From positions 1-46,856 of IMG/VR virus record IMGVR_UViG_3300020205_003425: a stretch of 46,856 bases of DNA; one strand, given 5' to 3'. The notes under the pieces were generated by a model. That model had not been told where the DNA came from. It did not search any database and saw only the letters and a list, made by a program, of their open reading frames with translations. Source of the DNA: a virus. Below, piece after piece: positions 1-37,469 of the stretch (the stretch's first letter is position 1; the number at the start of each line of letters is the position of its first letter). A program made the position numbers and the translations under genes.

Positions 1-339
1 GAGTTGGGAACCTTGCACAACAGCATCAATGGTTTGTTAGAGCAAGCCGCAAAAGAAAAACGCCAACCCCTGACGCGTGATGAAAAAGAAAACATCATGC
101 GCAAAGAAATGGCCAAGACCGTCACCATTGGTGGCATGTTGCCATTTGGTTGGTCAGACTCTTCAAAGCCAATTGCTCAACTCAGTGATGATGAACGCCG
201 CAAGGTGGTCATTCCACCTGCTGAGCGTCAATTGATTTCGGCAAAGATGGCTGAGCGCTTCAAAGTCTCTCAAGACCCGCTGTTTGCGCCAACTGAAGAC
301 AACCTGCGCAATTGGTATTTGGTCGGGCTGCGCAAATAA
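1..339 (+). CDS. Internal virion (ejection) protein, C-terminal fragment cut by window edge
   Basis: Only the last 112 codons lie in the window; the reading frame is open from base 1 and ends in TAA. The fragment matches the C-terminus of the complete gene at 44197-45972 residue for residue over most of its length, with the shared ending NLRNWYL.GLRK, so the product is the same ejection-type protein from a related phage. The stop overlaps the start of the next gene (TAATG), the same junction as in the complete copy. In podoviruses, proteins at this position are carried inside the capsid and ejected into the cell with the DNA. The role is inferred from position, length and neighbours rather than from a recognised domain. 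Confidence 0.8.
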   Translation, partial: ELGTLHNSINGLLEQAAKEKRQPLTRDEKENIMRKEMAKTVTIGGMLPFGWSDSSKPIAQLSDDERRKVVIPPAERQLISAKMAERFKVSQDPLFAPTEDNLRNWYLVGLRK

Positions 340-1223
340 TGGCTGACTATGACCAATTGATGGACCGTGCACTTGCCCCCAAAGGCCCGGGCACAGCCTC
401 CACCCTCAATGACACCTTTGGTTCCTCGATGGATATGTACATCCAGCGCAAGAACCAGTCGTTCCTTGGTCAAGTCAACCAAGCGGTTGATGTCAATCCA
501 GACAAATTCAACGAGCAACGCAAAATTGCCAAGCAGCTTGACACCGTACCGGCAGCGGTTGAAGCCCTTCCAGAGGACACCAGTCGAGCGTCCAAAGTAC
601 AAACCCTTGCGACCAACACGACAAATGCACCCGTTTTGCGCCAGCAGTACACGGACGCTGACTTTGCCAAGCTTGCGCATGATGACTCGTTTTCACTGTC
701 AAGCATGGAACGGGTGGTGTCTGATGTCACCAAATATTTCATGGGGGTGGGCGCAGGACAGGGACTCATCGGAACCATCAAGGCCTCACCATTTGTAGCC
801 GCCGAGTCTTTCTCTGGTGTTAAGCGCGCAACCTATGACTTGGTGGAACCCTTTGCCCGAGCGCTAGTTGGGCCAGACAACATCTTTGGCAACCTCTCAA
901 AGTACAACGCACAAAAAGCCCAAGAGTTCAGTGCAATGGCTAAATCCATTGCCCAGCCTGAGCAGGGGATAGTGATGGGGGGCTTGCAGTCTGGCGGCCA
1001 GTCCTTTTTGCAAAGCTCCAAGTATTTACCCTTGGCGTTGTATGGGGGGCCGATTGGGGGCGCTGTTGCGCTAGCCGGTATGTCATTGGAGACATTCGGT
1101 CAAAGCTACAACAAAGCAGCGGACAAAAACCTACCCCTTTATCAAACCTTGGCCTATGCAGCCAGTGATGCCACCATTGAATGGGCCACTGAAAAGGGAC
1201 CTCTGGGCGCTTTGGTGCAAAAC
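1..1223. repeat. Left homologous end (related to 45634-46856)
   Basis: This stretch aligns base for base, with no net insertion or deletion, to the last 1223 bases of the window. A hand comparison of the first 339 bases gave 63 mismatches (about 81% identity), many at third codon positions, so both copies look like functional genes under selection. It covers the end of the ejection-protein gene and the start of the giant virion-protein gene. The spacing between copies, 45633 bases, is a plausible genome length for this phage. See the tandem-prophage finding. Confidence 0.9.
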
Positions 1224-4200
1224 CTGAAAGCTGGTACGCCCGTTTTTATATCCATCCTCTCAAATGCCTGGAAAGAAAACAAAGGCGAGCAGGTCGCAAC
1301 AGCACTCCAAGATTTAAACGAATGGGCCACCTTAAACCCCGAAAAACCGTTCAGTGACTATCTAGACGCACGACCAGCGGCTGCTGCTCAAACTGCAATC
1401 GCAGTCCTCTTTGGCGCAAGCGGGAACGTGGTGCTGGGTGACACGCTTGAGAAAATCGCCAACCACCAAGCCAAAAACGCAGACTTGGCCGTACGCAACG
1501 ATATGTTTGCGCAGATGCAGCCCCTCATTGATGAAAGCAAGCTCAGGGCGCGCGATCCATCGGTCTTTAGCCAGTTTCTAGCCGCAACCACTGACGGCAC
1601 GCCCACACAAGACCTCTTCATCAGTGCTCAGACTTTGCAGCAGTCAGGTGTTGCTGAGCAACTCGCAGCCGCAATCCCCAGTGTTGCAGCACAACTCCCC
1701 GATGCACTGGCAAGCAACGGGCTCGTGCGTATCCCGACTGCTGATTACGCGGCCTTAATAGCCGGGACCCCCATCTCTGACGCCATCATCGAGCACATCA
1801 AGACCGAGCCCAACGGGTACACCTTCGCTGAGTCCAAGCAGTATGAGACGAGTTTTAACCAAGAGATGCAAGCGCAGTTGGAGACAAAGCTCAACGAAGC
1901 TGCGCTCGACAACGGTTTCAAAGAAAGCCGGGATGCGGTTCGAGACATCTTTGCCCAACAACTGAACACAGCAGGGCGCTTTACCAATGAAGTCAACAAC
2001 GCATATGCCGGGTTATTGGCAAACTTTTATGCCGTCACAGCGGCCAAGTTAGGCATGACGCCACAAGAGCTGGTCAATAAATACCAGCTCAACGTGGTCA
2101 ACCAAACCCAAGCAAACGCACAGTTTGACCAAGCCGGGGACTTCTTTTACCAAGATGGCCGACTGATGGGCATCAATGTGCGCACCGATACCCAAGCAGG
2201 TATTCGCTACGCAGACGAGATCATCAGTGGGAAAAAGGTCTACGAAAGCCGCAACACCGATTCCCTGCGCCCCTATGTGGGCCAACGCATCGCCATCGTG
2301 CGCACGGGTGAGGGCTCAGCCAAAGCCATTGGAGAGGTCACATTAGGTGAACCGATTGTGGTGAATGAGGAGCAGTTCAACGCAATGCGTGAGCAGCACC
2401 TCGTGCCCGCTGGCAGCACTTTCGATGTGCCCCCAGGTGGGGTTAAGTATTTGTATCCCGTTCAAGAGCCAACGCGATATGAAACAGAACGTGATGTTGG
2501 ACAAGGTATTGTTTCAAGGCAAGTGCTCAACCAACGCGGTGTCCAAGAAAAAGGACGAACTGTGCCGGATGCCGTGCAAGCTGTATCAAACGTTGAGTCA
2601 TCGTTCGAGTTTGCGGCTTCTCAGTCATTCCCAACCAATCGTGATTTCAAACTTGCGCTGCAAGGCAGAGTCCTGGAAGCTGCCAAAGCAGCCAAAGTGA
2701 ATTTGGCTGATTTCAGCATCGCAACGGAGGAGTATTTGGTGCGCATGGCTTATGCAGATGGGATAACCGCGCTGCGCACAAACCCAAACGCTGTGGGTTG
2801 GTACAACGAGAAAGTCACAAAAGCACTGCGCTTGGTCTCCCTCGTCCACCCTGAAATCTTGACTGACCGCAACGCTAAGTTTGCATTTGTTTGGGCGCTT
2901 GCCGTCACCAGTAATGGCCTAAAGGTTGATAAAAACTTCGATTTGGCTGAAAAAGCCTATGAGCAATGGAAAAACAGCTCACCCGACATCGCCAAAAGGA
3001 CCATGCCAACGGACATTGGCATCGGCACGGCATCCATCTCCATCAACAAAAGCCTTGGTCTGTACAACACCCTCATAGCCCGGGACGGCTTTGAAGCGAT
3101 TGAGACCTTCATGACTACGGTGCAGACCGTGGGTGAGGTGCAAAAGTTCACAGGCGAGAACGTGAGCGGCGAGAACAAAACCACCCAGGTCTATGGTGCC
3201 GCTGCACTGGGCCCCAAGATCGGCAATGGGTTCTTTATGAACCTTTATGGTCATTTTGAGCAATTGACGATGGACCGGTGGCTCATGCGGACTTGGGGGA
3301 GGTGGACCGGCACCCTGGTCGAAGTTAACCAAGCGCAGGTCAAATCTAAGCGCGTCCAACTCAAGTCACTCATCCAGTCGCTCAACCCAGCGGACAAAAA
3401 GGCGTTTGAAGCCATTATCAAACGCAAGCTCACCATTGGAGACATTGACGCTGTTGCCCAAGCCATTTGGAAAGCCAGCCAAAAGCCAGCCAATCGAATT
3501 GAAATGGCAAAAATCGGTATTGCCCAGGATGCCGACCAAGCCGCATTTGTTGAAATCTTGGGGGATCTTGTCAAAGGGCAAAGGCGTGTTTCGTATGGGG
3601 ATGAGTTGCGCAAAGCCGGTAATGCCCTAGATAAGTACAGGGACGGACAAAACGAAGCCCCAAGTGGTCCACCCCAGCGCGGAAACATCCGAAAGGTGTT
3701 TTCTCAGGTCTTGTTAATGCTCCAAAAAGACCACCCGGCGCTTACAATGAGTGACTACCAAGCGCTTCTTTGGTACCCTGAGAAACGACTCTACGACACC
3801 GCAAAAACCTCTGATGAGGCGACAGAGAGTTACGAAGACAATGAGGCACCAGACTATGCAAACGCAGCAGCAAAACTCGTCCGATCCAAAGGCGTCTCAG
3901 ACGAGCGAATCAGCTCAGCCCTCGCAGCCGTCGACGCAGAGCTTTCGGCCAATGTCGGAGCAAGAGGAGTTCAATCAGGAACTGGAAGACAAGGTAATAG
4001 CGGAAATGGTTCTGTCCTTGAGCAAGCAGCCCAAGTAAACAACGCCCCTCGCGGGCAAATCTTCTTTGGCAATGACATCACCCAGCAGCCTAGCGTGCTG
4101 GCGTTACTAGAAAAAGCCGATCTATCCACGTTCCTTCACGAGTCCGGACACTTCTTCCTTCAAGTCCAGGCTGACTTGGCAATGCGCATTCAGTCACGCA

Positions 4201-7200
4201 TCAGCGCAGGTGACGTGGCAAGCAACGCTGAGCGCAGCATTGTTGAAGACATGGATCGGCTCTTCAATTGGTTTGGTATCAAAGCCGATACCGATGTCAG
4301 TGCCTTGGATCAGTGGGCGCAGATGTCGCTCGACGAGCAGCGCAAATATCACGAACAGTTCGCCCGCGGCTTTGAGGCGTACCTACTTGAGGGCAATGCA
4401 CCAACCCTTGAGCTGCAAAGCCTGTTTCAAAAGTTCAGGTCCTGGTTACTCAACATCTATCGAGACTTGAAGGCACTTGATGTCCAGCTAACAAATGAGG
4501 TGCGAGGCGTCATGGACCGCATGGTTGCCACATCCCAAGAAATTGCAACTGCACAAGATGCCCGCAACATGGGTCCGCTATTTAACCCTCAAAACGGCAG
4601 TGGCCTGATTGAGGACTGGCGCGCATATCACGACCTTGCAAACGATGCGACCGCCACTGCGATTGACCAACTCCAAGCCAAGAGCATGCGCGATATGCAG
4701 TGGCTCAGTAATGCCAAGAGCCGAGTCCTTAAAAAGCTGCAGCAGCAACACGACGAACTTCGGTCTGAAATTCGCAGGGAAGTTAGCCAAGGTGTGATGA
4801 GCCAGCCCATCTATCAGGTCTGGCAGTTCCTGACCGCAAGAAGTGGTGAAGAGATGGTCTTAGGTCAGACGCCTATGGTCCCCGAGTCGTTGGCGTTCTT
4901 TAGAGGAAAGCTCGACGCACAAATACTCAAAGAAATGTACGCAAATGAGCCAAACATCAATTGGCAAGCATTGACCCGTTTGAGCATGACCAGTACCAAA
5001 TCAGGCCTGCATCCGGAGGTGGTTGCGGAGTTGGCCGGTTTTAGTTCTGCCGATCAAATGGTCAAGGCACTGATCGATGTGCAGCCACCCTCTGAGGTCA
5101 TCGAAGCAGAAACTGATCAGCGCATGCTTGAGGAAAATGGGGATGTGGCAGATCAAGATGCAATGGACCGTGCGGCTGATGCAGCAGTGCACAACGAGCT
5201 GCGCGCCAAGATGCTGCAAACAGAGGCCCGTGCTCTTGAGATGGCAATGCAAGTCAAAGTAGATGGCACGCGCACCAACGCCAAGGGCACGCGCTTGAGC
5301 TTCAATGTGCTGCCTAAAGTGGCGAGAGAATTTGCACAAAGCCTGATTTTGAAACTCAAGGTGCGTGACATTCGTCCCAACCAATACGCAGCAGCAGAGG
5401 TGCGCGCAGCCAAAGAGGCCGAACGCGCATTTTCCAAAGGCGACATCCAGGCCGCTGCTGAACAAAAGCGCAACCAGATCATCAACAGCTACGCGACCCG
5501 CGCGGCTTATGACGCCCAAGACGAGGTCAGACGCACTGTGGCGTACCTGCGCCGCTTTGACGCAAAAAGCAAAGGGCTTGATGCGGACTACTACGACCAG
5601 ATCGCTCAGATGCTCGAGCGCTTTGATCTGCTTGCAACCACCAGCCTCAAAGAGATTGACAAGCGTACGAGCTTAGCCAATTGGCTCAAAGCACAAGAGG
5701 AGGCAGGCTACAAGCCCGATGTACCACCTGCTTTGGAGGCCGAGGCTTTTAGGAAGAGCTACAAAGACATGACGCTTGAGGAGTTGCGGGGTCTGCGCGA
5801 CACCATCCAGCAAATTGAGCACTTGGGTCGATTAAAGCAAAGGCTCTTAACGGCACATGACCAGCGCGAGTTTGACCAAATTCGAGATGAGATGGCGTAC
5901 TCGATCCAAAGTAATTCCAAAGGCAGAAAAGCTGACAACCGCACACCTAACACCGTTCTTGGCGAAAAACTTGTTTCTGTCAAAAGCTTCTTTGCCGCTC
6001 ACATCAAGGCCGCAACTTGGGCCCGCATCATGGACGGCGGCAAAGACGGTGGCCCTGTCTGGGAATATTTGATCCGAACGGCCAATGATGCCGGTAACAG
6101 GGAAGTTGCCATGCGCGAGCGCGCAACCCGTGAGCTGTCAGCCTTGATCTCGCCGGTGCTGGGGCAGGGCAAGCTGGGCGGCAAAGGTACGTTCTTTCCG
6201 GCCATCAACCGATCCCTGAATAAAGAAGCCATCTTGGCTATCGCTTTAAACGTGGGCAACGAATCCAACGCCCAGCGCCTTTTGGGGGGTGAAGGGTGGA
6301 CGATTGCTCAAATCAAACCCGTGCTCGATACGTTAAGCACTGAGGATTGGAACTTTGTGCAAGGGGTGTGGGATTACTTTGAGACCTATCGCCCAGATAT
6401 TGGTGCCAAAGAGCGGCGCATTTACGGCAAAGAGCCAAAGTGGATTGATGCTCGATCATTACAAGTTGAAACGAAAGATGGTGACAAGATATTTCTGCGC
6501 GGCGGCTACTACCCGGTCAAGTTCGACCCGCGTGCGACCGAGCGTGCAGAGCAGCATGCTGAGGCTGAAGAAGCCAAACGCATGCTTCAAGGGGCCTACA
6601 CCAGTGCGACCACACGGCGCAGCTTCACCAAGGAGCGCGTTCAGGAGGTCAACGGCAGACCGCTGTTGTACTCACTAGACGGAATCTATAACGGCATTAA
6701 CGAGGTCATTCACGACCTGTCTTGGCATGAGTGGTTGATTGACGCCAACCGGATTTTGAAAAACCCAAAGGTTTCAGATGCAATGCGCAACGCCTATGGG
6801 GCTGAAGTGCATCAGCAATTTAAGTCCTGGGTCAAAGATGTTGCCGAAGGTGACCGCGGTGCTCAAAACGCAGGAGAAAAGTCCCTGGCCTGGATTCGCC
6901 AAGGCGTCTCAGTTGCCGGTCTGGGCATTAACGTCATGTCCGCGTTGTTGCAACCCTTTGGTATTACTCAGTCGATTGTGCGTATCGGCGGTGCTTATGT
7001 GGGCAAGGGCCTAGCTAAGTTTGTCTCAGACCCGATCGGTTTGAACGCTGCAATTTCTGAGATGAGCGAATTCATGCGCACCAGAAGCCTGACCCAGATG
7101 CGTGAGCTGGCAGAGCTTCGCAATCAGGTGAAGGGTCAGACTGAGACTCGGCGCAATGTGGACGCGGCTATGTACGCGCTCATGCTGCGCGCCCAGCAGT

Positions 7201-7901
7201 TGGTAGACCTGCCAACTTGGTGGGGAGCGTATGAGAAGGCCATTGCTGAAGGCAGCGACCAGGATCGATCAGTCACCTTGGCTGATCAAGCTGTGATTGA
7301 TGCGCAGGGGAGTGGCACGACCAAAGACCTTTCAGCTATTGAGCGAGGTGGTCCAGCCATGAAGCTGTTCACGGTGTTCTATTCATTTATGAATACATCT
7401 CTAAACTTGGGCTTTGCGCAAACCATGACGCGTGACTCCAAGATGAAGCTGGCCGCGGACTATTTGCTGATCTACGTGGTCCCTGTGGTGCTGATCTCTC
7501 TCATGAAGTCAGCTTTTACCCCCGGGGATTCGGGCGACTGGGACGATCCCAAAAAGATCGCAGCCAAGCTCATCAAAGAAGAAGTCTCTTATCTGATGGG
7601 TATGTTCTTTGGGCTCAGAGAGGTTTCAAACATAGTTGATGCGTTCCAAGCTAAACCCAGTGGCGAGTACAAGGGTCCGGCTGGAACCCGGTTGATTGGG
7701 GACACATTGGTGCTGGCTAAACAAATTGGGCAAGGTGAGATGGATGACGGTCTGCGAAAAGCTGTTATCAACGTTTCTGGTGAGTTGCTGAGGCTTCCAA
7801 GCGCCCAGATCAACCGCACGATCACAGGTGTAGTGGCCCTAAAGGAGGGCAAAACCAAGAACCCCGCAGCTATCGTCTTTGGCTACGAGCAACCGCACTA
7901 A
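339..7901 (+). CDS. Giant polyvalent internal virion protein (2520 aa)
   Basis: The start ATG overlaps the stop of the upstream ejection-protein gene (TAATG) and gives the conserved N-terminus MADYD also seen in the second copy at 45972. The architecture is that of large polyvalent phage proteins thought to be packaged and injected with DNA. An ASCH-like nucleic-acid-binding segment lies at about residues 600-705 (EIISGKKVYESR, then GQRIAIV and GEVTLGEP). A zinc-metallopeptidase-like HESGH motif lies at about residue 1267. Long charged helical stretches fill about 1400-1950, and hydrophobic segments lie near the C-terminus (about 2200-2220 and 2370-2395, with YVVPVVLISLM). The N-terminal 300 residues are glycine- and alanine-rich around 230-260 and may contact membrane. 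As the last gene of the ejection operon it probably forms the trans-envelope conduit and delivers enzymatic domains to the host. The metallopeptidase assignment rests on one motif. Confidence 0.8.
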   Translation: MADYDQLMDRALAPKGPGTASTLNDTFGSSMDMYIQRKNQSFLGQVNQAVDVNPDKFNEQRKIAKQLDTVPAAVEALPEDTSRASKVQTLATNTTNAPVLRQQYTDADFAKLAHDDSFSLSSMERVVSDVTKYFMGVGAGQGLIGTIKASPFVAAESFSGVKRATYDLVEPFARALVGPDNIFGNLSKYNAQKAQEFSAMAKSIAQPEQGIVMGGLQSGGQSFLQSSKYLPLALYGGPIGGAVALAGMSLETFGQSYNKAADKNLPLYQTLAYAASDATIEWATEKGPLGALVQNLKAGTPVFISILSNAWKENKGEQVATALQDLNEWATLNPEKPFSDYLDARPAAAAQTAIAVLFGASGNVVLGDTLEKIANHQAKNADLAVRNDMFAQMQPLIDESKLRARDPSVFSQFLAATTDGTPTQDLFISAQTLQQSGVAEQLAAAIPSVAAQLPDALASNGLVRIPTADYAALIAGTPISDAIIEHIKTEPNGYTFAESKQYETSFNQEMQAQLETKLNEAALDNGFKESRDAVRDIFAQQLNTAGRFTNEVNNAYAGLLANFYAVTAAKLGMTPQELVNKYQLNVVNQTQANAQFDQAGDFFYQDGRLMGINVRTDTQAGIRYADEIISGKKVYESRNTDSLRPYVGQRIAIVRTGEGSAKAIGEVTLGEPIVVNEEQFNAMREQHLVPAGSTFDVPPGGVKYLYPVQEPTRYETERDVGQGIVSRQVLNQRGVQEKGRTVPDAVQAVSNVESSFEFAASQSFPTNRDFKLALQGRVLEAAKAAKVNLADFSIATEEYLVRMAYADGITALRTNPNAVGWYNEKVTKALRLVSLVHPEILTDRNAKFAFVWALAVTSNGLKVDKNFDLAEKAYEQWKNSSPDIAKRTMPTDIGIGTASISINKSLGLYNTLIARDGFEAIETFMTTVQTVGEVQKFTGENVSGENKTTQVYGAAALGPKIGNGFFMNLYGHFEQLTMDRWLMRTWGRWTGTLVEVNQAQVKSKRVQLKSLIQSLNPADKKAFEAIIKRKLTIGDIDAVAQAIWKASQKPANRIEMAKIGIAQDADQAAFVEILGDLVKGQRRVSYGDELRKAGNALDKYRDGQNEAPSGPPQRGNIRKVFSQVLLMLQKDHPALTMSDYQALLWYPEKRLYDTAKTSDEATESYEDNEAPDYANAAAKLVRSKGVSDERISSALAAVDAELSANVGARGVQSGTGRQGNSGNGSVLEQAAQVNNAPRGQIFFGNDITQQPSVLALLEKADLSTFLHESGHFFLQVQADLAMRIQSRISAGDVASNAERSIVEDMDRLFNWFGIKADTDVSALDQWAQMSLDEQRKYHEQFARGFEAYLLEGNAPTLELQSLFQKFRSWLLNIYRDLKALDVQLTNEVRGVMDRMVATSQEIATAQDARNMGPLFNPQNGSGLIEDWRAYHDLANDATATAIDQLQAKSMRDMQWLSNAKSRVLKKLQQQHDELRSEIRREVSQGVMSQPIYQVWQFLTARSGEEMVLGQTPMVPESLAFFRGKLDAQILKEMYANEPNINWQALTRLSMTSTKSGLHPEVVAELAGFSSADQMVKALIDVQPPSEVIEAETDQRMLEENGDVADQDAMDRAADAAVHNELRAKMLQTEARALEMAMQVKVDGTRTNAKGTRLSFNVLPKVAREFAQSLILKLKVRDIRPNQYAAAEVRAAKEAERAFSKGDIQAAAEQKRNQIINSYATRAAYDAQDEVRRTVAYLRRFDAKSKGLDADYYDQIAQMLERFDLLATTSLKEIDKRTSLANWLKAQEEAGYKPDVPPALEAEAFRKSYKDMTLEELRGLRDTIQQIEHLGRLKQRLLTAHDQREFDQIRDEMAYSIQSNSKGRKADNRTPNTVLGEKLVSVKSFFAAHIKAATWARIMDGGKDGGPVWEYLIRTANDAGNREVAMRERATRELSALISPVLGQGKLGGKGTFFPAINRSLNKEAILAIALNVGNESNAQRLLGGEGWTIAQIKPVLDTLSTEDWNFVQGVWDYFETYRPDIGAKERRIYGKEPKWIDARSLQVETKDGDKIFLRGGYYPVKFDPRATERAEQHAEAEEAKRMLQGAYTSATTRRSFTKERVQEVNGRPLLYSLDGIYNGINEVIHDLSWHEWLIDANRILKNPKVSDAMRNAYGAEVHQQFKSWVKDVAEGDRGAQNAGEKSLAWIRQGVSVAGLGINVMSALLQPFGITQSIVRIGGAYVGKGLAKFVSDPIGLNAAISEMSEFMRTRSLTQMRELAELRNQVKGQTETRRNVDAAMYALMLRAQQLVDLPTWWGAYEKAIAEGSDQDRSVTLADQAVIDAQGSGTTKDLSAIERGGPAMKLFTVFYSFMNTSLNLGFAQTMTRDSKMKLAADYLLIYVVPVVLISLMKSAFTPGDSGDWDDPKKIAAKLIKEEVSYLMGMFFGLREVSNIVDAFQAKPSGEYKGPAGTRLIGDTLVLAKQIGQGEMDDGLRKAVINVSGELLRLPSAQINRTITGVVALKEGKTKNPAAIVFGYEQPH

Positions 7902-16842: not shown

Positions 16843-17979
16843 ATGGCAGTAAATATCCAAGAGCGATCGGGCAATTACCAACTCAGAATCACACATAAAT
16901 TGCTGCCAAAGCAGTTCTTTTTTACATTCAAAACAAGAGTTGAAGCGGCTAACTATGGTGACCAACTTTCGCTGTTACTAGCCAACGGTGTAATCCCGGA
17001 CGAGATGCTCGCAAAAGCTGCCAAGCCATCCAACCCGGCGCTTTCGGTCATCCTCCTGGATTATTTAAAAAAGGCTGCGATCACAGACTCAGATGCAGAG
17101 CTTTTGAAGGTGATTTTTTCTGAAATTGTGGGTCTCAAATACTCAGACATAACCTTCGTATGGGTCGAGGATTACGTCAGGTCGCTCAAGAGCCCTGAGA
17201 AGAACTTGGCACCGGGGACGATCAGAAAGCGCATCGGTGCACTAGGCCGAGTGCTCGATTGGCACATCAACAATACGACCAAGAATGGTGAAACACCTCG
17301 GGCCAATCCATTCAGAATGATGACAAGGGGCTACAGCACATACTCAAAGCAAGATGCCAAAAAGTCAGTCATCAAGCGTGATGTAGTCAGGAATCGCCGT
17401 CTTAGCCCAGAGGAAAACCAGCGCATATTGGCTGTTCTTGCGGGTCATAAGCGTGAAAACCGTGAGCGGCCATACACCGATGACAAAGCGTTCAAATTAC
17501 TTTATGAGTTGATTGTTGATACCGGCCTTCGACTTTTTGAAGCGTATCGGTTGAACGCCAATAGCTTTGACTTCAAGACAAACATCATCAATGTAGAAGG
17601 TTCAAAGGGGCATCGGGGCTTTATCAAACAGCGAGTGGTGCCAATCAAGCATGAGTTGAGAGAGCCGCTGAAGGCTTGGTGTGCGGGGAGGGTGGGGCTG
17701 ATATTTCCCTACTGGAGCGGTGATTTAGAAAACAAGCGTGATGCGACCAACAAGCTCTCAAAACGCTTTACAGGTCTATTTGCCTATGCCAGCGTTGATG
17801 ACTTCACAGAGCATGATTTACGGCATGAGGCAGCTTGCAGGTGGTTTGAATTGCGAAACGAGCGAGGCTGGGTTTTCAGCGAAATTGAAGTGTGCCGGAT
17901 CATGGGTTGGACCGACACGCGAATGGCATTACGCTATGCGTCATTGCGCGGTGAAGATTTAAGCTCTAGGCTTGGGTAG
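16843..17979 (+). CDS. int: Tyrosine-type site-specific integrase
   Basis: The product has 378 residues; the start ATG is preceded by GGAGGG. The N-terminal 180 residues comprise an arm-binding beta segment (NYQLRITHKLLPKQFFFTF) and a helical core-binding domain. The catalytic domain has the family residues: first Arg in DTGLRLFEAYRL (about 229), HDLRHEA with His324, Arg327 and His328, and Tyr365 in MALRYASLRG. The third catalytic His/Trp position is Trp (MGWTDT), a known natural variant. It would recombine the phage at the tRNA-Cys core just upstream. Its end overlaps the convergent HTH gene by 14 bases, so transcription from the two sides may interfere. Confidence 0.95.
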   Translation: MAVNIQERSGNYQLRITHKLLPKQFFFTFKTRVEAANYGDQLSLLLANGVIPDEMLAKAAKPSNPALSVILLDYLKKAAITDSDAELLKVIFSEIVGLKYSDITFVWVEDYVRSLKSPEKNLAPGTIRKRIGALGRVLDWHINNTTKNGETPRANPFRMMTRGYSTYSKQDAKKSVIKRDVVRNRRLSPEENQRILAVLAGHKRENRERPYTDDKAFKLLYELIVDTGLRLFEAYRLNANSFDFKTNIINVEGSKGHRGFIKQRVVPIKHELREPLKAWCAGRVGLIFPYWSGDLENKRDATNKLSKRFTGLFAYASVDDFTEHDLRHEAACRWFELRNERGWVFSEIEVCRIMGWTDTRMALRYASLRGEDLSSRLG

Positions 17980-23362: not shown

Positions 23363-23393
23363 GGGGCGGCCATAAAAAGGTCGCCCCTTTTTT
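23363..23393 (+). terminator. Rho-independent terminator after the SSB gene
   Basis: GGGGCGGCC and GGTCGCCCC form a 9-bp stem (one G-U pair) around a 7-base loop, followed by six T. It may be partly read through, since the helicase gene starts 19 bases later with only an AAGGA ribosome site in between. Confidence 0.85.
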
Positions 23394-23411: not shown

Positions 23412-23963
23412 ATGCTGACCTTTACCCAGCTGCGCAAATGGCAGCGAAAAACAATTGAGATTTTGGCGACCAAGCCATATTTGCTTGTCGGTGCTCAACC
23501 CGGCTCTGGCAAGACGGCCACTGTGCTGTCGGCGTTGGCCCAAAAGAAAACCCGGACGTTATTGATCGCACCTTGCATCATCTTGGACCAAGTGTGGTCC
23601 CAAGAAGCGCTTGCTTGGGAGCACACACGACATCTCACTTTTGACATGGCACACCGCTTAAGCGGCAATGGCCGTTCGGGGCTATGGTTTGAAGGTACGG
23701 GCGACATCACAACCTGCACCCCTGACACGCTGGCTAAATTTCTTGATGCGATACATGAACGAAAGATCATCCCTGTCGAGCAAATCGTTGTTGACGAAAG
23801 CCAATTTTTCAAAAACGCCACAGCCGTTCGCACTGCTGCCTTGCACGTCTTGTCTGAGCATGTGCCAACTTGGCTTTTAAGTGGCACGCCCACACCCAAT
23901 GGGACCATCGACTGTTGGTCGCCTGGACGCATCTTGTCAAAACAAGGGGGGTTTTGGCAATGA
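23412..23963 (+). CDS. SNF2-type helicase, N-terminal half (RecA1 domain)
   Basis: The product has 183 residues; the start follows AAGGA. It contains the first helicase lobe: Q-motif-like WQRKTIEIL, Walker A GAQPGSGKT (27-35), TLLIAPCIILDQVWSQEA (motif Ia), TPDTLAKF (Ib), Walker B VVDESQ (128-131, DESQ where most SNF2 proteins have DExH or DEAH) and motif III WLLSGTPTPNG. It stops right where the linker to lobe 2 begins, with a stop codon overlapping the next start as ATGA. In other phages both lobes form one protein of about 450-480 residues; here 183 plus 281 gives 464. A run of six G and four T just before the junction is also a possible slippage or indel point. Each half alone should lack helicase activity. 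Confidence 0.85.
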   Translation: MLTFTQLRKWQRKTIEILATKPYLLVGAQPGSGKTATVLSALAQKKTRTLLIAPCIILDQVWSQEALAWEHTRHLTFDMAHRLSGNGRSGLWFEGTGDITTCTPDTLAKFLDAIHERKIIPVEQIVVDESQFFKNATAVRTAALHVLSEHVPTWLLSGTPTPNGTIDCWSPGRILSKQGGFWQ

Positions 23964-24805
23964 AAGAGTTCTACACGTGGCGTAAAAAGCACTTCAACCG
24001 TGTGTCTGAGTACTCATGGCGGGTCAAAAGCAAGGAGGTCGAGGCTGAAATTCGGGCCGAATTCTCCCAATACGCTTTGGCAATCAAGCTTGAGGATGCG
24101 GTTTCTGGTATTCCCGAGCCGCTTTACAGCGTCTACCCATTTGGATGGGATAAGGATCACTACGAGAGAATCGATTCATTCATTCAGACCAACCGTGTCG
24201 CGCTACCCAAAGGCAAATCACGGGTCGCGACAAACGAGGGGTCGTATTTGGCGATATTGCGACAGCTCACCTCCGGGTTGGCCTATGACAGCGAGTCGCT
24301 TGCTTACGAACTATCCACATCGAGGGCTGATGCGCTTGAAAGTGTGATTGATGATGTGCAAGGGCCAGTATTGGTCTCTGTTTTCTACAAAGCGGAGGTG
24401 GTTGCACTGCGTCGCAGGTTTGGCGCAAGGGCACGAGCGTTTGTTGGTGATACGCCCATTAGTGAGCGCAGCCGTCTTATTCATGCGTGGAACGCTGATG
24501 AGATTCCGATTTTGCTGGCTGCCCCTGCTGCGATGGGTCATGGAATCAATTTACAGCATGGTTCAGCGCGCACCATTGTTTGGCATTCCCACTCCTTTGA
24601 TTGGGCTCAGCGTTCACAGTTCAATGCACGGTTGGTGCGCTCAGGGCAAACCAAAACGGTATCCATCGTTGACTTGGTGGGAGACATAGGGATCGACAGG
24701 GCAGTACTCACGGCTTTGGCAAACAAACAAGCCGGGGAATCAGCAATCATGGAGGTGCTTGATATTCGCCATCGGTTCACGCCAAGGGAGGTGGCTTATG
24801 GCTGA
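23960..24805 (+). CDS. SNF2-type helicase, C-terminal half (RecA2 domain)
   Basis: The product has 281 residues. The ATG at 23960 overlaps the stop of the N-terminal half (ATGA), and the preceding GGGGGG run could serve as ribosome site. FYTWRKKHF is the usual start of the inter-lobe region. Lobe 2 motifs are present: GPVLVSVFYKAEVVALRRRF (motif IV region), AAPAAMGHGINLQHG (motif V, about 187-201) and QFNARLVRSGQ (motif VI with arginine finger, about 220-230). Nothing appears to be missing between the halves. The two products must associate, or be made as one by a -1 frameshift at the G/T run, to form an active translocase. The gene overlaps the polymerase gene by 8 bases (ATGGCTGA). Confidence 0.85.
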   Translation: MKEFYTWRKKHFNRVSEYSWRVKSKEVEAEIRAEFSQYALAIKLEDAVSGIPEPLYSVYPFGWDKDHYERIDSFIQTNRVALPKGKSRVATNEGSYLAILRQLTSGLAYDSESLAYELSTSRADALESVIDDVQGPVLVSVFYKAEVVALRRRFGARARAFVGDTPISERSRLIHAWNADEIPILLAAPAAMGHGINLQHGSARTIVWHSHSFDWAQRSQFNARLVRSGQTKTVSIVDLVGDIGIDRAVLTALANKQAGESAIMEVLDIRHRFTPREVAYG

Positions 24806-26036
24806 GCGCAAGGTTTATGACTTTGAAGTGGCGTGTCAAAGGGCCGTGCTCGGCATACAGGAGCACGGTCAGCCCCCAGAGCATTTGGTAATTGATGCGC
24901 CTATTGATGCCGACACAGCTATCGAAATACACAATCGACTGGGGGACGGGTGTGAAGTCGCGGGGTACAACAACTTTGGTTTTGATACCTATTTGCTCAA
25001 TGCCCTTTTGAATGGTGCTGGGCCACAGTATTTGCACGAGGTCGCCCAGGAAATCATTGGGTTCAGAGGGCCAGCTTGGAAAGTAGCGCAGGCGCACGGG
25101 TTGGGGAAAAGCGGGTTCAATGAACTTGACCTGATGCACTACACACCGAGGGGGCGGTTGAAAGAGTACGAGGGTCGGCTGGGGATGGAGATCAAGGATT
25201 TGCCATTTGATCCATCGGCCCCCATTACCGACGAGATGCTTCCCGCAGTCATCAAATACCTGGAGCATGACCTATATGCCACTGAGAAGCTGCGTCAAGC
25301 GGTAGACGGGGATATTCTGGCCCGCGTTCTTTTGGAAGAGATGTTTGGGGTCGCTGAGCTAACTAAAAAGACAGCGGCAAACGTCGCAGCAGCCATCATC
25401 GTTGCCGAATACAGCCGAGAAATGCCAGGGGTCGATTTGCGCGATATGAAGGCGGCATCGAGCCGTATGCGCAATTGCTCCTTTGATTTCTACGTTCCAG
25501 ACTGGGTGCGCAAGGGTATTGCTGGGACGATTGCGCAAGGGATCGCCGATGCTATTGACGGGACTGAATTCAAAATTGTCGATGGGGTCAGACAGCCACC
25601 TTCGCGCGAATGGCCTGAACTGATCACTTTGTCGGATGATGATTGTCTCGAGGCGAATTTTGGGTTGGGTGGCATCCACACCAAAGACGAGGCTTGTAAC
25701 TATGCGGCGATTAGTTTTGACGTTGCAAGCCTGTACCCACACATCATCATGCATGAGGACTGTGCTCCAACTCATTTGGATGCCAGCATCTTCCATGAAA
25801 TATACGGTCGTCTGATCAAGCGTCGGCTGGAGGCCAAAAGAGCCTCTGACAAGCCAACATCAAACGCACTGAAGCTGGTTTTGAACAGTTGCTTTGGGGC
25901 ATACAACTTCCCCTTTTCGCCGTTGTACAGCCTAGACGCCTTCTTATCCATCACGGTTTCGGGTCAGCTTTGTTTGCTGGCCTTGGCTGACCGAATGAAA
26001 CAAACACAAAAACAAGAGGTAATTGAGCATGTTTGA
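24798..26036 (+). CDS. Family B DNA polymerase, N-terminal part (exonuclease, motifs A and B)
   Basis: The product has 412 residues from ATG 24798. The 3'-5' exonuclease residues are present: YDFE (Asp8, Glu10), YNNFGFD (Asn59 to Asp63) and YLEHD (Tyr154, Asp158). The polymerase palm carries motif A, SFDVASLYPHI (Asp308), and motif B, ALKLVLNSCFGAYNF (Lys359, Asn363, Gly367). It then ends shortly after GQLCLLALADRM, before motif C. Motif C and the thumb are encoded at the start of the next gene. The exonuclease resembles the short type found in other phage B polymerases (NELDLMHYTPRGRLKEYEGRLG). The split may be genuine or may require a +1 shift; the 8-base overlap and a ribosome site for the second gene favour two proteins. 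Confidence 0.85.
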   Translation: MAERKVYDFEVACQRAVLGIQEHGQPPEHLVIDAPIDADTAIEIHNRLGDGCEVAGYNNFGFDTYLLNALLNGAGPQYLHEVAQEIIGFRGPAWKVAQAHGLGKSGFNELDLMHYTPRGRLKEYEGRLGMEIKDLPFDPSAPITDEMLPAVIKYLEHDLYATEKLRQAVDGDILARVLLEEMFGVAELTKKTAANVAAAIIVAEYSREMPGVDLRDMKAASSRMRNCSFDFYVPDWVRKGIAGTIAQGIADAIDGTEFKIVDGVRQPPSREWPELITLSDDDCLEANFGLGGIHTKDEACNYAAISFDVASLYPHIIMHEDCAPTHLDASIFHEIYGRLIKRRLEAKRASDKPTSNALKLVLNSCFGAYNFPFSPLYSLDAFLSITVSGQLCLLALADRMKQTQKQEVIEHV

Positions 26037-29000
26037 TACAAAACTGACGGACCGAACACGGGTTGTGTCTTTGAATACTGACAGTATTTCCATTCAAGTG
26101 CAGCGTGGAGATGAGGAGCGTGTCGCCCGTGTCATTGGCGAGTGGGAGGAGACATTCAATTTTGAAATGGAACGCTTGGATGTGTTGGAGCACAGGGCGC
26201 TCAACATCAACAGCTACATCGAAGTAGTCCAAGAGGGTGGCGGTTCGCCTGTTATCAAAAGCAAGGGCCTGCTATCACACGACCCAGGTATCAATTCAAA
26301 CCATAACCAGCTAATCGTCTCTCAGGCCATTGGGCAGTGGATGCTGGATGGGACACCTGTGGAGCAATTCATTTTGGAAGCGGCGAAGCAGCAAGACATT
26401 TTGAAGTTCACAGAAATGCGAACTGCACCTTCAAGCAATATTCGGTACGGCAATGAGCCCATTGGCAGGATTATTCGCGTTTACCGGTCAACCCGGCAAG
26501 ACCTGCCCAAACTTACCAAGGACGCGACTGGTGCGGCCTCAGAGCAACAATTTGAACCTGGGTTTGCATACTTGCCTGGGGTTGCTTGGCCCGAAGATGA
26601 TGATTTGGATGTGCAGTGGTACATCTTGCAAGCCAAATTGATTTTGGCCCAGACTTCCACACCGTATAGCCCACAGCACAACAAGCTTGCAAAACAGCTT
26701 TCAAATTTAGGTTTGCAGGTGGCAGGTGTGGGTGGAGCGGCCACTGTTCTCACTGATGGGGCTATCAACGAAGAGGCAATTGCCAGGGGTACTGCAAAAA
26801 ATCCACGTAACTATTCGGGTGACCGAGGGCTGGCTGTCAATATTGGCAAAAGCACTGGGCTGATTTGTATCGACCCGGGGCATCTCTCGCACGACTCCTT
26901 GGTGTTGAGCTTTGGTTTTTCTGATCAGAATGTAGTTGGCGAAATACACAACAAATCGAATATCGACAAAGCCAAGCAACGAGAGTTAAAAAAAGCAGGG
27001 GTAGAGGTCAACGAAAAGGGCTATGTAAAGGTCTACGACCAGCGTGACGGCCTTGTGCCGCTGCATATGGGTTCGGCTGTAGAAGCGGTTCAAGAGAGGT
27101 CCTTGTCCTTGGGGGGTTCTGAAGCTGAACTTGCTTCAAACGATGATTTCTTGCAGGTCATGTTCGGACCATCAATTGACAGTTGTTTTGTCTGCTCAAA
27201 CACAACACCGCCAGATTCTGAGGATGAGTTTGCCAAGGCTGGTATGTGGATTGGTGGGCCCTTGCAGTACTCGCGGGACTTGTACAAAGACCCGCAACGC
27301 CAAAACTACATCTGTGTGAGCACCTTCAAAACGGACTCGGAAGGGGTTTATTACCGGCAAGGCGAATTTTTTGATGCGTTGCACTTTATTGTTTTGGATG
27401 ATATTGGATCGAAAGTTGGCGTTGACCCAAGAACCTTGGGGTTTGGTGAGCCGACCTTCATCAATGAGACATCACCAGGGAACTTCCAGTGGTATTACAA
27501 GCTAAAAGAGCCAGTTCGTGACCTGTCGGTAGCCAGTTTTCTGACAAAGCAAGTTTTGGCGACGCCGGTTCAGGGCTTTTTGATGACCGATCAGGGGGCA
27601 AAGGGGATCACAAGGCTTTGCAAGTTGCCATTTGGGCGAAATCTCAAGTTGTCGCTTGGCAAGGTTTGGCAAAACCGACCTACATCTTGGACGCCTAAAA
27701 CCGAATACACCGCGCAAGAGATTGCGGGTTGGTTTGGGTTGTCATTGGATTCTGTTCCGCACATCAGTGCGGGGCCTGCGGCTACGGCTGAAGCTGCCGG
27801 TGACCACCCTCTGATACTTGCCTTGCATGCTGCAGGGCTTTTATTGTCAGCCCAGCAAAAGGGCTCGGGGTGGTGGGACATGCTTTGCCACAACCGGGGT
27901 TCACACAGTACAGGTGCTGGTGTTGATTCAGGGACAGCCGTCAAGATTAGGCAAGACGGCTCTTGGACATTCAGGTGTCAGCATGGTCATTGTGCAGATT
28001 TAAAACCCCGAGACTTGTACAGGCATCTGTCTGAGCAGGGGTTTGTGCCAACACCCCCGCAGCACAAAATCTACATCAAGCGAATTGATCCTGCCGAAAT
28101 ATTTGATTTGGCCTCTTTTGCTGAAGATGACTTTTCATTTTTGGACCCGGACGATGGTGGGGCCGGTGAGGAGGTGGATTATCCCGATCCTGAAATCGGT
28201 GGAGGCGGTGCTGGCATTCCTATCTCAGCCGGTGGGTTGGGATCGGGAGGGGGGAAACCATGCATTTATATTGACCCGGGCCATTTGCCAAGGATGGTTC
28301 ATGAATGTGCGGAAATTCTTAACGATGTCGTTTACAAGCGTGGCATTTACTTGGTGCGCATCGGTCAAGGTTGTGAGTTGGTGGATGGGCTATCAAGAAT
28401 CGGAACACAACCCATAGTGATGCCGGTGACAAGAGCTTGGCTGGTTAGAGAGCTGACACAACGGGCTACTTTTATGCGGTGGAATGTAAAAGCCAACGAC
28501 TACAAGGTCTGTGACTGCCCTCAAAACATTGCAATGACGCTTGAGACGGGAACAGATGACTACACGTTTAGGCCGCTCACAGCCTTAGCTAACGCACCAT
28601 TCCTACGCGTAGACGGCTCTATTTGCGATAGCCCCGGATACGACGCAGACACGGGCATTTATTACGCCCCGAGCCTTGTTTTCCCATCGATCAGTGCGAA
28701 CCCCTCTTGGCAAGAAGCCAGGGACGCACTGGATTTGATAAGTGAATTGGTTAAACAGTTCCCGTTTGCCAACGAGGTCTCGAGGTCTGTGTTCTTGTCT
28801 GATGTATTGACTTCGATTGCTAGACCCACATTACCCAAGTCACCGGTTATTTTGTACAACGCCACGATGGCTGGTTCAGGCAAGACGCTGATGGCTTCTG
28901 TCGCTAATTTAATTGCTTACGGGCATGCAACGACGCACCCTTGGCCTGGGGTGAATGAAGAGGAGTTGAAAAAGGTTTTCACATCTGTGTTGCTGGCTGG

Positions 29001-29781
29001 TGACCCGGTGGTTGTCTTCGATAACTTGCCAAATGGGGCAATGATTAAGAGCGCAGCGTTGTCACAGTTTGCAACTTCAGATGATTACGCCGATCGAAAG
29101 TTGGGGGTTTCTGAGCGGGTTAAGTTTCGCAACAGGACTCGTGTTGTTTTGACTGGTAACAACATAACGCTTGCAAGCGACAACGCACGACGAACACTGG
29201 TTTGTGATTTGCAGCTTGAGGTTGAATCCATCAAAGACCGGGTCGTTGATTTTGAACACCCCAGTTTGGCGTCCCACATCAAACAAAACCGACCCCTATA
29301 CATATCTGCGGCTTTAACAGTCTTGAAAGCGTATGCCATGCATAGCGCCCCATTGATGCTGTCACCTCTTGATAGCTTTGAGGATTGGTCTTGGAGGGTC
29401 AGAGAAGCATTGGTGTGGCTGGGGGAAGAAGACCCTGTTGCGGCCATCCAATATGAGAACGATGGGTCGGGGGAAATTGCAATGGTTTTTGCAACGATTC
29501 AGGACTTGGCAAATATCAAGCAAGCCCACAGCAAAGAAAAAGATTTCAAGTCCAGTGATTTAGCCAACTGGGTCGCTTCAAACATGGCGCTGCGCGATGC
29601 CTTGGAGCAGGCTGGTTGTACCGATATCACCAGTTCAGGGAAGTTGGGATTTTGGCTGAGGGCACATAAAAACCGAATTGCTGGTGGTTTGAAGTTGATT
29701 TCCAAACAAATGCATGGCGGTCGAGAACCGGCGCGCTGGAGCTTGATTTCATCAATCAACGGAAAAAACAAGGATTTTTAG
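26029..29781 (+). CDS. Fusion: PolB motif C and thumb, primase, Zn finger, helicase
   Basis: The product has 1250 residues. ATG 26029 lies inside the previous gene's end (overlap ATGTTTGA) and is preceded by AAGAGGT. Residues 1-230 complete the polymerase: motif C VVSLNTDSISI (Asn16-Thr-Asp18; family consensus has Asp first) and a thumb region. About 440-590 resembles an archaeo-eukaryotic-type RepB primase (HFIVLDDIGSK, NETSPGNFQWYYKL, GITRLCKLPFGRN). About 615-660 is a putative zinc finger (LCHNRG then FRCQHGHC). About 855-880 has FLRVDGSICDSPGYDADTGIYY, seen in primase-helicases of phages and plasmids. Walker A MAGSGKTL (about 946-953), VVFDNLP and VVLTGNN form a ring-helicase ATPase. Primer synthesis, unwinding and polymerase C-terminus on one chain is unusual. 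I recognise no stand-alone primase or replicative helicase elsewhere. Confidence 0.8.
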   Translation: MFDTKLTDRTRVVSLNTDSISIQVQRGDEERVARVIGEWEETFNFEMERLDVLEHRALNINSYIEVVQEGGGSPVIKSKGLLSHDPGINSNHNQLIVSQAIGQWMLDGTPVEQFILEAAKQQDILKFTEMRTAPSSNIRYGNEPIGRIIRVYRSTRQDLPKLTKDATGAASEQQFEPGFAYLPGVAWPEDDDLDVQWYILQAKLILAQTSTPYSPQHNKLAKQLSNLGLQVAGVGGAATVLTDGAINEEAIARGTAKNPRNYSGDRGLAVNIGKSTGLICIDPGHLSHDSLVLSFGFSDQNVVGEIHNKSNIDKAKQRELKKAGVEVNEKGYVKVYDQRDGLVPLHMGSAVEAVQERSLSLGGSEAELASNDDFLQVMFGPSIDSCFVCSNTTPPDSEDEFAKAGMWIGGPLQYSRDLYKDPQRQNYICVSTFKTDSEGVYYRQGEFFDALHFIVLDDIGSKVGVDPRTLGFGEPTFINETSPGNFQWYYKLKEPVRDLSVASFLTKQVLATPVQGFLMTDQGAKGITRLCKLPFGRNLKLSLGKVWQNRPTSWTPKTEYTAQEIAGWFGLSLDSVPHISAGPAATAEAAGDHPLILALHAAGLLLSAQQKGSGWWDMLCHNRGSHSTGAGVDSGTAVKIRQDGSWTFRCQHGHCADLKPRDLYRHLSEQGFVPTPPQHKIYIKRIDPAEIFDLASFAEDDFSFLDPDDGGAGEEVDYPDPEIGGGGAGIPISAGGLGSGGGKPCIYIDPGHLPRMVHECAEILNDVVYKRGIYLVRIGQGCELVDGLSRIGTQPIVMPVTRAWLVRELTQRATFMRWNVKANDYKVCDCPQNIAMTLETGTDDYTFRPLTALANAPFLRVDGSICDSPGYDADTGIYYAPSLVFPSISANPSWQEARDALDLISELVKQFPFANEVSRSVFLSDVLTSIARPTLPKSPVILYNATMAGSGKTLMASVANLIAYGHATTHPWPGVNEEELKKVFTSVLLAGDPVVVFDNLPNGAMIKSAALSQFATSDDYADRKLGVSERVKFRNRTRVVLTGNNITLASDNARRTLVCDLQLEVESIKDRVVDFEHPSLASHIKQNRPLYISAALTVLKAYAMHSAPLMLSPLDSFEDWSWRVREALVWLGEEDPVAAIQYENDGSGEIAMVFATIQDLANIKQAHSKEKDFKSSDLANWVASNMALRDALEQAGCTDITSSGKLGFWLRAHKNRIAGGLKLISKQMHGGREPARWSLISSINGKNKDF

Positions 29782-36657: not shown

Positions 36658-37437
36658 TTAAGGAGTTCTAACAACACGGATACCTAGGTACTGAAACCCC
36701 TCTTTTGCGGAACTATAGAATCGAAATGCACTTCGCAACCCATCTGGGTGTGAGCCCCATTCGCCGCCACGCATTACCCTTTTTGTAGAGCAGTTTCCAG
36801 CTATCCAAGCGCTACCGTCATTCGGGGCACCGTTATAGTTTTCATTCCAGCAATCTTGTGTCCATTCCCATACGTTGCCAAACATGTCGTATAGACCAAA
36901 CTGATTGGGTTTCTTTAGACCAACCATTTGCGATTTATTTTCTGAAATTGAATCATACCAAGCATATTCTCTAGTTTGTTTTTTATCCTCTCCCCAAAAA
37001 TAGGTTGTTGTTGTTCCAGCACGTGCTGCGTATTCCCATTCGGCTTCTGTTGGTAGTCTGTAGTTCTTGCCAGTTTTTTGGCTGATTTTTTGTGCAAATA
37101 AACCTGCTTCATCCCACGATATATTTTCAACAGGCAGTTTCCGTCCTTTATTTACACTCGGGTTATATCCCATCACTTCATACCACTGCTCCTGAGTAAC
37201 TTCATACTTACCTATTGCAAACGCCTTAATCTGAACACGATGTTGGGGTTTTTCAAATTCGGTAGCTTCGTTGGTAAATGGGTCCGATCCCATCAAAAAA
37301 GTGCCAGCAGGAATATTCATCATTTCGGGGCACTCTTCGCAGTCTTTAAAAGCTGCTTGAAGCTTTGGCGCACAGGCCATCTGTGTAACGCATAGCCACC
37401 CAAGAAATATTACTGAGCAATATTGATACAGCCTCAT
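36658..37437 (-). CDS. Lipoprotein with FGE-sulfatase (SUMF1-like) domain
   Basis: The product has 259 residues. I start it at ATG 37437 (GGGGA upstream), giving a signal ending in a Cys (LGWLCVTQMAC). The start at 37467 would lie inside element copy 6. The domain matches FGE-sulfatase proteins: IPAGTFLMGS, KPQHRVQIKAFAIGKYEVTQEQW, PVENISWDEA, YRLPTEAEWEYAARAGT, GLYDMFGNVWEWTQDCW, RVMRGGEWG and GIRVVRTP. Family members include sulfatase-activating enzymes and many non-catalytic surface binders. The C-type-lectin-like fold and lipid anchor suggest display on the host envelope during lysogeny. I see no sulfatase partner and no reverse transcriptase nearby. The gene is AT-rich and opposite to the virion genes. 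Confidence 0.85.
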   Translation of the reverse strand: MRLYQYCSVIFLGWLCVTQMACAPKLQAAFKDCEECPEMMNIPAGTFLMGSDPFTNEATEFEKPQHRVQIKAFAIGKYEVTQEQWYEVMGYNPSVNKGRKLPVENISWDEAGLFAQKISQKTGKNYRLPTEAEWEYAARAGTTTTYFWGEDKKQTREYAWYDSISENKSQMVGLKKPNQFGLYDMFGNVWEWTQDCWNENYNGAPNDGSAWIAGNCSTKRVMRGGEWGSHPDGLRSAFRFYSSAKEGFQYLGIRVVRTP

Positions 37438-37458
37438 TATTTTTCCCCAGGTAATGGT

Positions 37459-37469
37459 GGTACGCATGA
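37459..37469 (+). promoter_or_regulatory. GGTACGCATGA element, copy 6
   Basis: This is an exact copy of GGTACGCATGA. It lies 28 bases before the forward gene at 37497 and 22 bases upstream of the reverse lipoprotein start. Confidence 0.55.

Follow-up and report, generated by a model that had tools for sequence, protein, structure and literature searches.

Two SNF2 reading frames in a temperate phage

The window, by which we mean the whole 46,856-bp virus record analysed here, belongs to a temperate phage. It encodes an integrase, replication proteins, a T7-like head-tail connector, a major head protein, tail proteins and an endolysin. The replication block opens with a DUF2800/PD-(D/E)XK nuclease gene, followed in order by genes for an Enc34-type single-stranded DNA-binding protein and by two SNF2 helicase ORFs (ORF1 and ORF2). 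It then continues with the N-terminal part of a family-B DNA polymerase, a fusion of the polymerase C-terminal part with a primase-helicase, and a RusA-like resolvase (Table 1). Elsewhere in the window, one very long ORF has an LPD22 (large polyvalent protein) domain towards its N-terminus, and a kinase-like gene (PHROG 18508) lies between the head-tail connector and major head protein genes.

Table 1. Coordinates of features in the window
Feature	Position	Strand	Remarks
SNF2 helicase ORF1	23412..23963	+	183 aa; RecA lobe 1 core, motifs I-III
SNF2 helicase ORF2	23960..24805	+	281 aa; linker region and RecA lobe 2, motifs V, VI
ATGA stop/start overlap of ORF1 and ORF2	23960..23963	+	ORF2 in the -1 frame
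Shine-Dalgarno-like tract AAGGGGGG	23944..23951	+	8 nt before ORF2 start; contains G run
Six-G run	23946-23951		upstream of ATGA
Four-T run	23952-23955		follows the G run
Family-B DNA polymerase, N-terminal part	24798..26036	+	412 aa; exonuclease region and palm to motif B; PHROG 1252 positions 89-453
Polymerase C-terminal part with primase- and helicase-like regions	26029..29781	+	1250 aa; from motif C (NTDS)
Integrase	16843-17979
ORF with LPD22 domain	312-7901		2529 aa
Terminator-like hairpin	23363-23393		followed by six T
PHROG 11354 match	24476-24763		within ORF2
Kinase-like gene	36658-37467	-	PHROG 18508

The two ORFs, judged by their sequences, are the halves of one phage SNF2 (superfamily 2, SF2) enzyme of PHROG 62, a family annotated as DNA helicase. 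The match of ORF1 to that profile (8.7e-27) covers positions 695-859, and the match of ORF2 (1.8e-41) adjoins it at positions 872-1134. Pfam places SNF2-rel_dom in ORF1 (1e-13) and Helicase_C in ORF2 (4e-5). ORF1 contains motif I (GAQPGSGKT), motif II (DESQ) and motif III (SGTPTPNG), and ORF2 contains motif V (AMGHGINLQ) and motif VI (QFNARLVRSGQTKTVS). The original prediction had described two ORFs of these lengths joined by an ATGA overlap, with the G and T runs upstream and the motifs divided in this way, and all of this was found as described. It had also held that the two products together equal a normal phage SNF2 protein. This was borne out by the alignment, in which the joined ORFs are collinear with intact phage proteins of 420-504 aa and nothing is lost.

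In that alignment, the break point reads DxGxR | LGxxxxYRxRxF. The split itself is real, but its proposed position exactly between the two RecA lobes is only approximate: the cut lies 3' of motif III and its helix, within the Pfam SNF2 N-terminal domain, which leaves the helical and linker region on the side of the second lobe. Sequence searches against solved structures brought up SNF2 and other SF2 proteins, all of them distant, and gave no finer placement of the lobe boundary. AlphaFold2 models of each half alone, built from three-row alignments, had mean pLDDT values of 38 and 49 and were not used. As a separate observation, residues 173-268 of ORF2 also match PHROG 11354 (116 positions, no known function), which hints that some other phages may have the C-terminal part of a helicase as a short gene product of its own.

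Conservation of the break in related loci

Five relatives have the helicase divided at this very residue, which makes six loci with the window. Three of these relatives are 63-68% identical to the window: L002, from IMG/VR; L005, which belongs to a named strain, Limnohabitans radicicola JUR4; and L015, from a further genome that the same search of the genus returned. Their ORF1 has exactly 183 codons and their ORF2 has 285-286. The other two, L037 and L038, are distant contigs with 49-52% identity to the window over ORF2. Early IMG/VR searches found one relative, and the distant clade surfaced with a four-sequence alignment. The recurrence of the split in five relatives makes it more than a chance observation.

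Comparison of homologues, which the original prediction had proposed as a check on the ATGA junction, shows that the overlap is conserved more widely than its exact letters. ATGA is identical in L002, L005 and L015, and so occurs in four of the six loci. In L037 and L038, ORF1 ends in FWH-TAA and ORF2 begins at a TTG codon 7 nt upstream of that stop, so that the start overlaps here too. Across the loci, between 4 and about 10 bases are shared by the two frames. At the N-terminus of ORF2 there are 5 extra residues in L038 and 17 in L037, as expected of a free terminus, and this counts in favour of separate chains. All six loci share one gene order. Motif VI is conserved across them as QxNARLxRxGQTKTVS, and motifs I, II, III and V are likewise kept.

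In the phylogenetic tree, all six split sequences group in a single clade (support 100/100) to the exclusion of 17 intact homologues. A single origin suffices to explain this grouping, and most simply the split would date from a single event no later than the base of the phage clade. The branch between split and intact proteins amounts to 2.48 changes per column, and thus there is no close intact cousin by which to date the split. Several intact rows are themselves long-branched, which makes their deep placement uncertain.

The distribution of the split appears narrow. The family, the order and the class of L. radicicola were each sampled with about 400 genomes, and that genome apart there were only weak homologues; all those that could be reconstructed are intact, while the ORF filter used gave no reconstruction of L044, L047 and L050. 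Most sampled genomes and phages lack a close relative of the split locus. On the sequences compared, the split SNF2 is a feature of a small group of freshwater Limnohabitans-type prophages, represented by the six loci.

Expression of the two frames

The arrangement of the junction fits a coupled pair, in which ORF2 would be translated by termination-reinitiation with the help of the overlap and of a Shine-Dalgarno-like tract. The tract in the window has a predicted pairing with the 16S tail of -11.6 kcal/mol. Counterpart purine tracts (GGGGGG, GGGGAG, GGGAAG or AAGGAG) lie 7-8 nt before the ORF2 start in all six loci; in L037 and L038 it is AAGGAG, 7 nt before the TTG. The weakest predicted pairing among the loci is -7.4 kcal/mol and the strongest -11.6, whereas background 20-mers average -3.2 (sd 2.7). 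A pairing of -7.9 kcal/mol or stronger, comparable to the weaker junctions, turns up in about 6% of such 20-mers, and given this rate and the kinship of the six loci we regard the Shine-Dalgarno evidence as moderate. Two reports describe short gene overlaps as coupling the translation of neighbours that frequently belong to a common complex (PMC6728339, PMC10666635). Overlap and tract persist across six loci and about 50% protein divergence, in surroundings whose sequence varies, and the two-subunit helicase made by coupled translation, one of two options in the original prediction, is supported.

The other option was slippage. Programmed -1 frameshifting or transcriptional slippage would give a fused full-length helicase, either alone or beside a short ORF1 product. 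ORF2 is in the -1 frame at every one of the six loci, and this frame has no stop over the 48-210 nt ahead of the end of ORF1, so that a shift would yield a full-length protein; the window also offers a run of six G followed by four T. Counter to this, the GGGGGGTTTT run occurs in the window only and is absent from the five other loci, and initiation accounts for a purine tract placed at a fixed distance from the start codon. In none of the six loci do the final 60 nt of ORF1 contain an in-frame canonical slippery heptamer (X XXY YYZ). Downstream, in a search for stimulatory RNA structure, pseudoknot-free folding was no better than that of shuffles in five loci (z from -0.2 to +1.5). Slippage at GGGGGGTTTT is thus disfavoured, as is canonical frameshifting generally, which would have neither a conserved run nor an in-frame heptamer nor a remarkable downstream fold. 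We judge the production of a fused helicase unlikely. Two separate chains are the best reading, and a minor fused product may be made beside them.

Divided replication enzymes and a probable two-subunit motor

Estimates of dN/dS are 0.07-0.16 for both helicase halves (from pairs with estimable dS, 0.45-2.1; several dS comparisons involving the window were saturated), which indicates that both halves are under purifying selection. The two proteins could nonetheless both be made and no longer cooperate, one or both having taken another role. The long branch separating split from intact proteins permits such a change. Against it, ORF1 retains motifs I-III and ORF2 motifs V and VI, and none of the six loci departs from the common gene order; we consider a change of role even less probable than fusion by slippage.

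Least credible by far is that an indel broke an intact SNF2 frame, through sequencing or assembly error or in a decaying gene: the six-G run does adjoin the break and the window record is a metagenome-derived contig, but the break recurs at the same residue in five more records with differing local sequence, one of them a named strain, there is purifying selection on either side of it, and it has outlasted heavy synonymous divergence. A run-length error, which the original prediction had itself named, is effectively excluded by separate assemblies that have different nucleotides and the same frames.

We therefore return to two cooperating chains. In SF2 enzymes, motifs I, II, III, V and VI form one ATP site from both lobes, and such a motor runs through the opening and closing of two lobes that belong to a single chain. 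Other phage members of the SNF2 family carry both lobes on one polypeptide; here, a stop codon and a frame change follow motif III in all six loci. We think it quite likely that this is a naturally split SNF2 helicase, in which two polypeptides are made from one message by termination-reinitiation and assemble into one ATPase. The first polypeptide would supply RecA lobe 1 with motifs I-III, and the second the linker and RecA lobe 2 with motifs IV-VI. Reinitiation at the overlapping stop and start, aided by the Shine-Dalgarno-like tract at the 3' end of ORF1, would keep the subunits at near equal amounts. The halves would then assemble without a covalent link, with the active site between them, and would do the job of an intact phage SNF2 protein in replication or recombination. 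Sequence and gene order argue strongly for the two-subunit motor, its biochemistry being predicted from that of the SNF2 family. If this is correct, the covalent link between the lobes is dispensable in an SF2 motor, and the phage provides a split motor ready for use, with an activity that might be controlled through the joining of its halves.

The helicase lies directly before a split polymerase, as the original prediction had stated, and that second split is conserved as well. In all six loci the polymerase is divided just before motif C, with overlapping frames (ATGTTTGA in the window), and its C-terminal part is joined to a primase-helicase in a protein of about 1,250 aa. In the window, residues 6-216 of this protein match PHROG 1252 positions 445-658, with RepB-primase-like and helicase-like matches beyond. 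Among the matches listed for INPHARED phages, none covers more than 34% of the fusion protein, so the polymerase-primase-helicase fusion appears to be limited to this phage group. An apparent D-to-N change in motif C (NTDS) was considered as an oddity and set aside, since polymerases of this family ordinarily have NTDG, among them those of Acidovorax phage ACPWH, Alteromonas phage R7M and BcepGomr.

As far as the compared loci indicate, the unusual feature of the lineage is that two adjacent replication enzymes are both divided and kept divided. On balance, and with less assurance than for the split helicase itself, we favour an obligate two-subunit SNF2 motor, with an ATP site formed only upon assembly, in a lineage whose polymerase was re-divided and its C-terminal part joined to a primase-helicase, together making a rearranged replisome under selection. 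In that case, the polymerase split and fusion would show how freely phage replication machines are cut and rejoined.

Searches confined to open-licence papers brought up no natural SNF2 or other SF2 motor split between its lobes, which is weak evidence that none has been described. Split family-B DNA polymerases occur in Methanothermobacter (PolB) and in some T4-like phages, where two genes encode one replication enzyme; these are polymerases rather than a helicase, and the C-terminal part of the window polymerase is additionally fused to a primase-helicase. Fractured genes with split inteins also encode a phage enzyme in two pieces. Unlike these, the helicase junction has overlapping frames and no extra intein-like sequence: intein halves were absent at the break, and clade A has no extra sequence and is collinear with intact homologues. 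The intact PHROG 62 proteins, such as Brevibacillus phage Emery gp99 and Bacteriophage Phobos Pho15, share family, motifs and total length with the joined ORFs and are collinear throughout, but are one polypeptide where the window has two ORFs.

In group 2.2 jumbo phages, a minimal DNA polymerase III alpha is encoded in two proteins that are proposed to reconstitute an active enzyme (PMC7824862). This is likewise a phage replication enzyme divided between subdomains, but it is another enzyme and its halves come from distant genes, whereas the SNF2 frames overlap and are probably coupled. The ATGA gene pairs treated in PMC6728339 and PMC10666635 have the same overlap and, by extension, would share termination-reinitiation and membership of one complex; those are general gene pairs, whereas the pair in the window comprises two lobes of a single motor domain.

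A further observation concerns the region between the single-stranded DNA-binding protein gene and ORF1, where the window has a terminator-like hairpin (GGGGCG...CGCCCC). L002, L005 and L015 have a GGGGCGG...CCGCCCC hairpin with a pyrimidine tract at the same place upstream of ORF1. Such a hairpin could lower expression of the helicase and polymerase relative to the single-stranded DNA-binding protein.
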